Source: Zeimonas arvi
GTDB taxonomy: Bacteria; Pseudomonadota; Gammaproteobacteria; Burkholderiales; Burkholderiaceae_E
DNA: 64,000 nt
Reading direction: 5' to 3'
Assembly (NCBI RefSeq): GCF_008039575.1
Contig: NZ_VDUY01000004.1
Coordinates: 248,001-312,000 of the forward strand
In this document: piece by piece, positions 21,482-23,148 of the stretch
Position numbering within the stretch: position 1 is the stretch's first letter
Layout: each line of letters begins with the position of its first letter
Program-made: the position numbers and the translations under genes
Notes under the pieces: generated by a model
Told to the model about the DNA's origin: nothing
Seen by the model: only the letters and a program-made list of their open reading frames with translations
The model's database searches: none

Positions 21482-22378
21482 TTAGACGTACGAGGCGAGC
21501 TGGCCTTTCATCTTCTGAAGGGCCTTGGCCTCGATCTGGCGGATCCGCTCGGCCGACACGCCGAACTCGGCCGCCAGTTCGTGCAGGGTCAGCGTGCCGC
21601 CTTCGGCCTCGTCGCGCAGCCAGCGGGTCTCGATGATGCGCCGGCTTCGCGGGTCGAGCGCCTCGAGCGCGCGGGCCAGGCCTTCGCCCTGGAGCCGGTC
21701 GCGCTGGCGCGCCTCGATCACCTGGGTCGGATCGGCCTGCGGCGCGGCCAGCCAGGCGCCCGGCGAGTACTGCTCCTCGCCGTCGTCGGTCTGCGCCTCG
21801 AGCGCCAGGTCCTTGCCCGACAGCCGGGTCTCCATCTCGACGACGTCCTTCTCGCGGACATTCAGCTCGCGCGCGATCGCGTCGACCTCGCCGGCGCTCA
21901 GCGTGCCCGAGCCGGTCTTCATCGAGCGAAGGTTGAAGAACAGCTTGCGCTGGGCCTTGGTGGTGGCCACCTTCACCATGCGCCAGTTCTTCAGGATGTA
22001 CTCGTGGATCTCGGCCTTGATCCAGTGCAGCGCGAAAGACACCAGCCGGACGCCGCGCTCGGGATCGAAGCGCTTGACGGCCTTCATCAGGCCGATGTTG
22101 CCTTCCTGGATCAGGTCGGCATGGGGAAGGCCATAGCCCAGGTACTGGCGGGCCACCGACACGACCAGGCGCAGGTGCGACAGCACCAGTTCGCGGGCCG
22201 CGTCCAGATCCTGGCGCTCGCGGAAATTGCGGGCGAGCTCGCTCTCGCGCTCGGCCGTCAGCATGGGCAGGCGGTTGACCGCCGAAATGTACGCATCCAG
22301 GTTTCCGACGGCAGGCACCGCCAGCGTGAGGCTGGAAGCTGCGGCAGGCACGATTGCGGTCGAAGTTCGCTTGGACAT
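21482..22378 (-). CDS. rpoH: Heat-shock sigma factor RpoH (sigma-32)
   Basis: Directs RNA polymerase to heat-shock promoters. It has 298 residues. Region 2 shows the core-binding QEGNIGLMKAVKRFDPERGVR in pieces, and the family-specific RpoH box (TTKAQRKLFFNL) follows region 2.4. Region 4 at the C-terminus carries the helix-turn-helix TLHELAAEFGVSAERIRQIEAKAL. The leader and promoter region hold a CIRCE element and a perfect 14-bp palindrome, described separately. That suggests repression by HrcA. Confidence 0.96.
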   Translation of the reverse strand: MSKRTSTAIVPAAASSLTLAVPAVGNLDAYISAVNRLPMLTAERESELARNFRERQDLDAARELVLSHLRLVVSVARQYLGYGLPHADLIQEGNIGLMKAVKRFDPERGVRLVSFALHWIKAEIHEYILKNWRMVKVATTKAQRKLFFNLRSMKTGSGTLSAGEVDAIARELNVREKDVVEMETRLSGKDLALEAQTDDGEEQYSPGAWLAAPQADPTQVIEARQRDRLQGEGLARALEALDPRSRRIIETRWLRDEAEGGTLTLHELAAEFGVSAERIRQIEAKALQKMKGQLASYV

Positions 22379-22422: not shown

Positions 22423-22436
22423 TGACCGATCGGTCA
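22423..22436. promoter_or_regulatory. Perfect 14-bp palindrome in the rpoH leader
   Basis: TGACCGATCGGTCA is its own reverse complement. It lies 45 bases upstream of the rpoH start and downstream of the CIRCE element, so it would be within the transcribed leader. Palindromes of this length and spacing are common TetR-family operators; in RNA it would give a short stem. The palindrome itself is certain, its role is not. Confidence 0.5.
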
Positions 22437-22456
22437 GTTTCGGGCTTTTCATTAGA

Positions 22457-22483
22457 TTAGCACTCTCCGGGCGAGAGTGCCAG
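22457..22483 (-). promoter_or_regulatory. CIRCE element (HrcA operator) overlapping the rpoH promoter
   Basis: TTAGCACTC, nine bases, then GAGTGCCAG. The CIRCE consensus is TTAGCACTC-N9-GAGTGCTAA; the left half is perfect and the right half matches 7 of 9. Read toward rpoH it overlaps an extended -10 (TGC-TAATCT) with a CTGGCA hexamer 18 bases further up, so HrcA bound here would block that promoter. The centre lies about 92 bases before the rpoH start and 31 before maiA. Confidence 0.8.
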
Positions 22484-22500: not shown

Positions 22501-23148
22501 ATGCTCAAGCTCTACACCTACTTCCGCAGCTCGGCCGCGTTCCGGGTCAGGATCGCGCTGAACCTCAAGGGCCTGCCCTGGGAGCCGGAGGTGATCTGGC
22601 TGCCGGAGGGGGAGCATCGCGGGGATCCTTACATCGGCGTCAATCCGCAGGCCCTGGTGCCGACGCTGGTCGACGGCACGCTGCGGCTCAACCAGTCGCT
22701 GGCGATCATCGAGTACCTCGACGAGACCAGGCCGGGCCCGCGCCTGCTGCCGGCGGATCCGGCCGGGCGGGCACGCGTCCGCTCGCTGTCGATGCTGGTG
22801 GCGGCCGAGATCCATCCGCTGAACAACCTGAGGGTGCTGAAGTACCTGAAGCGCGAGCTCGGGCAGGACGAGGCGCAGATCGGCGTCTGGTACCGGCACT
22901 GGTGCGACGAGGGGCTGGCCGCCTTCGAGCGCCAGCTCGAGGACGGCGGCGCCGGCCGCCATTGCCACGGTGATGCGGTCACGATGGCCGACGTCTGCCT
23001 GGTGCCGCAGATCTTCAATGCGAGACGTTACGAGACCCGGGTGGAGCGCTACCCCCGCACGATGAAGATCTTCGACGAGTGCATGCGCCTCGAGGCCTTC
23101 AGGCGGGCCGAACCCTCGGCGCAGCCCGAGGCCGCCCGGGCCGGCTGA
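22501..23148 (+). CDS. maiA: Maleylacetoacetate isomerase (zeta-class GST)
   Basis: Isomerises maleylacetoacetate to fumarylacetoacetate in tyrosine/homogentisate breakdown, using glutathione. It has 215 residues. The zeta-class active site SSAAFRVRIAL is at residues 8-18, followed by the GST turn VPTLVDG and LNQSLAIIEYLDE. The ATG at 22501 has a G-rich upstream tract. Its 3' end overlaps the convergent diguanylate cyclase gene by 50 bases. The partner hydrolase is not adjacent; an FAH-family gene at 46339 is a different subfamily. Confidence 0.92.
   Translation: MLKLYTYFRSSAAFRVRIALNLKGLPWEPEVIWLPEGEHRGDPYIGVNPQALVPTLVDGTLRLNQSLAIIEYLDETRPGPRLLPADPAGRARVRSLSMLVAAEIHPLNNLRVLKYLKRELGQDEAQIGVWYRHWCDEGLAAFERQLEDGGAGRHCHGDAVTMADVCLVPQIFNARRYETRVERYPRTMKIFDECMRLEAFRRAEPSAQPEAARAG

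Follow-up and report, generated by a model that had tools for sequence, protein, structure and literature searches.

HrcA and sigma-32 are commonly presented as two alternative circuits of the heat-shock response. Does one of them act on the gene of the other? The question is raised by a 64,000-nucleotide stretch of the Zeimonas arvi genome, here called the window, in which an earlier note had claimed a CIRCE element, the operator of HrcA, upstream of the sigma-32 gene rpoH.

A CIRCE element upstream of rpoH

We searched for the CIRCE consensus TTAGCACTC-N9-GAGTGCTAA with few mismatches allowed. Positions 22457-22483 of the window read TTAGCACTC-TCCGGGCGA-GAGTGCCAG, with 9/9 matches in the left half and 7/9 in the right half (16/18 of the consensus), exactly as the earlier note had described them, and the element is found in the same place in relatives. 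CIRCE is palindromic and thus strand-neutral, but on the rpoH strand the half proximal to the gene is the perfect one and both mismatches fall in the distal half. The rpoH gene (21482-22378, minus strand), which encodes a sigma-32 of 298 residues (TIGR02392, 406 bits against a cut-off of 323), lies 78 nt downstream of the element. On the other side, 17 nt separate CIRCE from the start codon of the divergent maiA gene for maleylacetoacetate isomerase (22501-23148, plus strand; TIGR01262, 254 bits, cut-off 171).

No other match with three or fewer mismatches occurred in the window, and the mean number in shuffled windows was 0.01. Given the base composition of the window, the probability of at least 16/18 matches is ~3e-9 per position and ~3e-7 in the rpoH-maiA intergenic region, and 0.012 such matches are expected in the 3.83-Mb genome. 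A scan of the whole genome (16 contigs, 98.9% complete) at up to three mismatches yielded only two sites, a perfect one at groES and the one at rpoH, and hence none at hrcA itself. The lack of an hrcA gene had been named as a finding that would speak against the operator; the gene was found intact (TIGR00331, 316 bits, cut-off 197) elsewhere in the genome, adjoining a nadK-like gene. Its product is related to the solved Thermotoga HrcA (1STZ), the match spanning the first half of HrcA.

Since the site of the window carries two mismatches, it might be an inherited remnant whose affinity for HrcA is too low to be of consequence in the genus, where two-mismatch sites recur and the distal half often reads CTGGCACTC. 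However, the congeneric loci L115, L117, L121, and L126 have kept the same form with two mismatches, and hrcA has been kept as well. Decay would be expected to take a different course in each congener, and the identical form therefore argues against it. We regard a remnant as quite improbable and a working operator as the better reading.

A predicted sigma-70 promoter built into CIRCE

It had also been proposed that the element, read toward rpoH, overlaps an extended -10. On the rpoH strand the perfect half continues into TGCTAATCT, a match to TGnTAnnnT at 22462-22454. The predicted extended -10 of the rpoH promoter, TGC-TAATCT (22454-22462, minus strand), is made up of the proximal CIRCE half and three further bases, the -10 itself being TAATCT (22459-22454). 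More generally, GAGTGCTAA followed by n-A-T toward rpoH gives TGC-TAAnnT, the first six bases of which coincide with the end of the proximal half-site. A weak -35-like sequence, CTGGCA, is located at the distal end of CIRCE (22478-22483, minus strand), 18 bp from the -10. A generic sigma-70 scan of this region of the window called no promoter, because the -35 (CTGGCA with its 18-bp spacer) and the -10 match only partially; a terminator scan was likewise empty.

Comparison with relatives agrees with the proposed overlap. The third base past CIRCE is T at the rpoH sites of 109/111 loci in the order, 30/30 in the family, 39/39 among the named betaproteobacteria, and 86/97 in the class, whereas only 3/23 groES sites have T at this position. 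A -10 fused to CIRCE is thus kept at rpoH and not at groES. This pattern points to rpoH transcription beginning shortly past CIRCE, with a predicted start near 22447, and speaks indirectly against a start well outside the element, which had been put forward as a refutation. At groES, CIRCE instead follows a sigma-32-like promoter (CTTGAAA), which points to different wiring of the two CIRCE sites. Deviations from the consensus were more frequent in the distal than in the proximal half (41 vs 25 in the class, 26 vs 8 in the family), those of the distal half being mostly TTGG/CTGG in relatives. Such an excess would follow from a double constraint on the proximal half.

The same comparison bears on the role of maiA. 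The operator might serve mainly this gene, with rpoH as a bystander, given that the maiA start codon is only 17 nt from the end of CIRCE in the window and that at least 13 family loci have maiA as the divergent neighbor of rpoH. CIRCE at rpoH nevertheless persists in lineages without an adjoining maiA, the maiA start is much farther from CIRCE in several loci of the family, and it is the conserved half-site with the -10 that faces rpoH while the degenerate half faces maiA. An operator devoted to maiA is thus very improbable. HrcA on the same site might also repress maiA in addition to rpoH, so that heat shock in the genus would also induce the detoxification of breakdown products of tyrosine and aromatics. 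Bound HrcA would cover the maiA leader, and a divergent maiA lies similarly close in another genome of the genus (G037); however, the spacing between maiA and CIRCE varies in the family and a maiA promoter was not identified, which leaves this additional role possible but rather unlikely. An operator that acts on rpoH fits these comparisons best.

CIRCE at rpoH is conserved and is lost together with hrcA

Genes were called present by profile searches, and the genomes searched had a completeness of at least 95%. The class sample represents Gammaproteobacteria (beta included) with about one genome per family, with four genomes of low-scoring rpoH left out, and sites in this sample were called at up to three mismatches to CIRCE. 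CIRCE was present at rpoH in 92/100 hrcA-bearing vs 5/30 hrcA-less genomes of the class (Fisher p 3e-15, kinship ignored) and in 111/115 vs 0/12 genomes of the order (Fisher p 8e-14, kinship ignored). A control with the reversed pattern always gave four or more mismatches. In the family, 58/61 genomes had one or two CIRCE sites at up to two mismatches, and all 30 rpoH loci examined carried the element. It was also found upstream of rpoH, with 0 or 1 mismatch, in 39/39 named betaproteobacterial loci and at rpoH of several named gammaproteobacteria; among the named relatives, the rpoH loci of Pseudomonas, Vibrio, and enterobacteria had no CIRCE. Conservation of the site in relatives, whose lack had been put forward as a possible refutation, was therefore confirmed in the order and the class alike.

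Because the genomes are related, the Fisher p values overstate independence, and repeated co-loss is the better argument. Within one genus, an hrcA-less genome (G231) has a relic with five mismatches, ATAGCACACTCATAGAAACGGTGATAA, whereas G269 and G305 have hrcA and perfect sites. Genomes without hrcA stand beside hrcA-bearing ones in two more families (G299; G246), and three whole families (f150, f172, f175) are hrcA-less. In G274, a weak hrcA match is broken by a stop and CIRCE is absent at rpoH.

In the class sample, five genomes without detectable hrcA keep CIRCE at rpoH with 0-3 mismatches (L217, L254, L255, L261, L264). This counts against the operator reading, although it could be due to recent loss of hrcA, to a missed gene, or to another protein that reads the site. 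Apparent tandem elements were seen at two rpoH loci, with the extra copy directly before the main site in L218 (G067) and downstream of it in L178 (G171). Among the named loci, the rpoH nearest to that of the window was on a contig titled Bordetella parapertussis (L004, a MAG), whose organism label may be doubtful.

A predicted sigma-E promoter overlaps CIRCE in relatives

We called a sigma-E -35 box where a GAAC core was present with at least 5/7 matches to GGAACTT. Such a box lay at -15 to -17 from CIRCE in 65/97 class loci, in 53 of them exactly at -16; at other positions the mean was 0.18 per position. The spacing in the E. coli rpoH P3 promoter is 16-17 bp. With this spacing, the sigma-E -10 coincides with the final TC of the distal half-site together with the first bases of the spacer. 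TCnnA was present in 97/109 loci with the box at -16 and in 31/33 with the box at -17, counted in a pool with some overlap between samples, and spacer position 3 was A in 60/65 loci with the box vs 13/32 without it. Where the -35 is shifted to -12, TC is found at spacer positions 3-4 in 9/9 loci (4/253 of the others), and where it is at -14, TC is found at spacer positions 1-2 in 8/8 loci (76/254 of the others). As judged from these counts, a predicted sigma-E promoter, GGAACTT-N16/17-TCnnA, is phase-locked onto CIRCE in most RpoE-bearing relatives, with its -10 inside the element.

The sigma-E box accompanied CIRCE at rpoH in 67/85 loci of RpoE-bearing genomes in the class and 68/107 in the order, but in none of the RpoE-less genomes with CIRCE (0/7 in the order and 0/12 in the class, the genome of the window being in both). 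RpoE (TIGR02939) was absent from the latter genome, with a best match of 107 bits against a cut-off of 236, and GGAACTT-N16/17-TCnnA was absent at its rpoH CIRCE. In the genus of the window, a GGAAC ~16 nt downstream of CIRCE was considered as a sigma-E box and rejected, as it has no -10 at 16-17 bp. The promoter motifs in the genome of the window are evidence for a sigma-70 route to rpoH alone.

Could the palindrome be the inverted-repeat shadow of promoter elements, or an RNA hairpin, on which HrcA does not act? Conserved promoter bases do lie inside the element, which would form a hairpin if transcribed. The predicted start is downstream, however, and would leave CIRCE outside the rpoH mRNA. 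The half-sites are kept beyond the promoter bases, and in hrcA-less G231 and G299 the intact CIRCE is gone while the sigma-E promoter is kept. This explanation is extremely improbable, and recognition of the palindrome by HrcA is preferred.

The phase-locked arrangement implies that HrcA could gate both the sigma-70 and the sigma-E inputs to rpoH. We consider it somewhat probable that in HrcA-bearing gamma- and betaproteobacteria the rpoH CIRCE is a composite promoter-operator, in which the proximal half serves as the sigma-70 extended -10 and the distal half with the spacer as the sigma-E -10, so that HrcA would gate housekeeping and envelope-stress inputs. Lineages would then drop single layers, CIRCE together with hrcA as in the hrcA-less relatives with a remaining sigma-E promoter, or the sigma-E box together with rpoE as in the genome of the window, and the E. 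coli wiring would be derived and simplified. In the full-text literature searched, in which few subscription journals were covered, we found no account of CIRCE at rpoH being overlapped by a sigma-E promoter.

Two further arrangements were observed. In L332 (G299), the palindrome overlapped by the sigma-E promoter is another one, TCAGGCACT-N9-AGTGCCTGA, which may be a remodelled CIRCE. In several genera of the family (L122, L124, L127, L133-L137, L140-L142), GATYGTCAGGA precedes CIRCE at a fixed distance and CGAC is present in the CIRCE spacer; these motifs could be the -35 and -10 of another ECF sigma factor replacing sigma-E.

Proposed circuit and related systems

It is highly probable, on the motifs and their conservation, that 22457-22483 is a functional HrcA operator which is physically part of the rpoH promoter and releases rpoH with groESL on heat. 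One heat-shock switch, HrcA, would thus very probably control the other, sigma-32, as first suggested for this locus and as supported by the site, the presence of hrcA, conservation, and co-loss with hrcA. For rpoH itself we infer HrcA binding, repression, heat release, and GroE feedback as follows. At normal temperature, GroESL would keep HrcA active, and HrcA on CIRCE would cover the extended -10, so that only small amounts of rpoH mRNA would be made by the sigma-70 RNA polymerase. Inactivation of HrcA by heat, or the engagement of GroEL by unfolded proteins, would release rpoH and groESL at the same time, and the new sigma-32 would further drive groESL and the remaining regulon. Such wiring would be a coherent feed-forward loop, in which GroESL closes a negative feedback. 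A precedent is the HrcA of Campylobacter jejuni, which no longer binds DNA at 42 C and which GroE stimulates (PMC8533110); by analogy this supports, without proving, the same behavior here.

The similar proposals that the earlier note mentioned do exist: CIRCE was reported upstream of rpoH in the deltaproteobacterium Geobacter sulfurreducens, at -51 from the translation start (Rodionov et al. 2004, PMC545781, Table 8), in a paper that cites Permina & Gelfand 2003 on beta/gamma/epsilon-proteobacteria, a study in which more cases are probably listed. The operator, the target gene, the similar position, and the inference that HrcA/CIRCE acts on rpoH are shared with the window. In G. sulfurreducens, however, CIRCE is also found at hrcA-grpE-dnaK, whereas the genome of the window has it at groESL and rpoH only, and the published report does not include the promoter anatomy described here. 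The link between rpoH and CIRCE as such is thus already known; its breadth and the phase-locked sigma-E overlap may be the parts that specialists would not expect.

The Bacillus-type system at groESL/dnaK has the same repressor family and operator, and groESL is the other target in the genome of the window. Here, in contrast, the target is not a chaperone but a sigma factor, and CIRCE stands in for the promoter core rather than lying past the start site. A stress input at rpoH is likewise provided by the sigma-E-dependent promoters E. coli P3 and Bordetella fam (PMC3490749), and most RpoE-bearing relatives of the window have the same promoter type (16-17-bp spacer), overlapping CIRCE; the genome of the window differs in having neither an RpoE above the curated cut-off nor a sigma-E box at rpoH. 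Among the control genomes of the profile search, E. coli had no hrcA match. Since SigE of Bordetella bronchiseptica, an RpoE homologue, drives transcription from the rpoH (fam) promoter in vitro (PMC3490749), a sigma-E input to rpoH is experimentally known in betaproteobacteria.

In most HrcA-bearing gamma- and betaproteobacteria, HrcA appears to stand atop the sigma-factor circuit. Translational and stability controls of rpoH are known from E. coli, and rpoH would gain a transcriptional heat sensor beside them. The compact overlap of sigma-70, sigma-E, and CIRCE offers a testable model for the integration of cytoplasmic (GroE/HrcA) and envelope (sigma-E) stress, and for the change of wiring after the loss of one regulator.

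The rpoH leader of the window contains a second, perfect palindrome, TGACCGATCGGTCA, at 22423-22436. It was examined as a known TetR-type operator, and no regulator could be assigned. A second operator, perhaps of a TetR-type regulator, is possible: the palindrome has a single other one-mismatch match in the genome, and it is conserved in most loci of the genus in the context GGAACTGACCGrTsGGTCAT.
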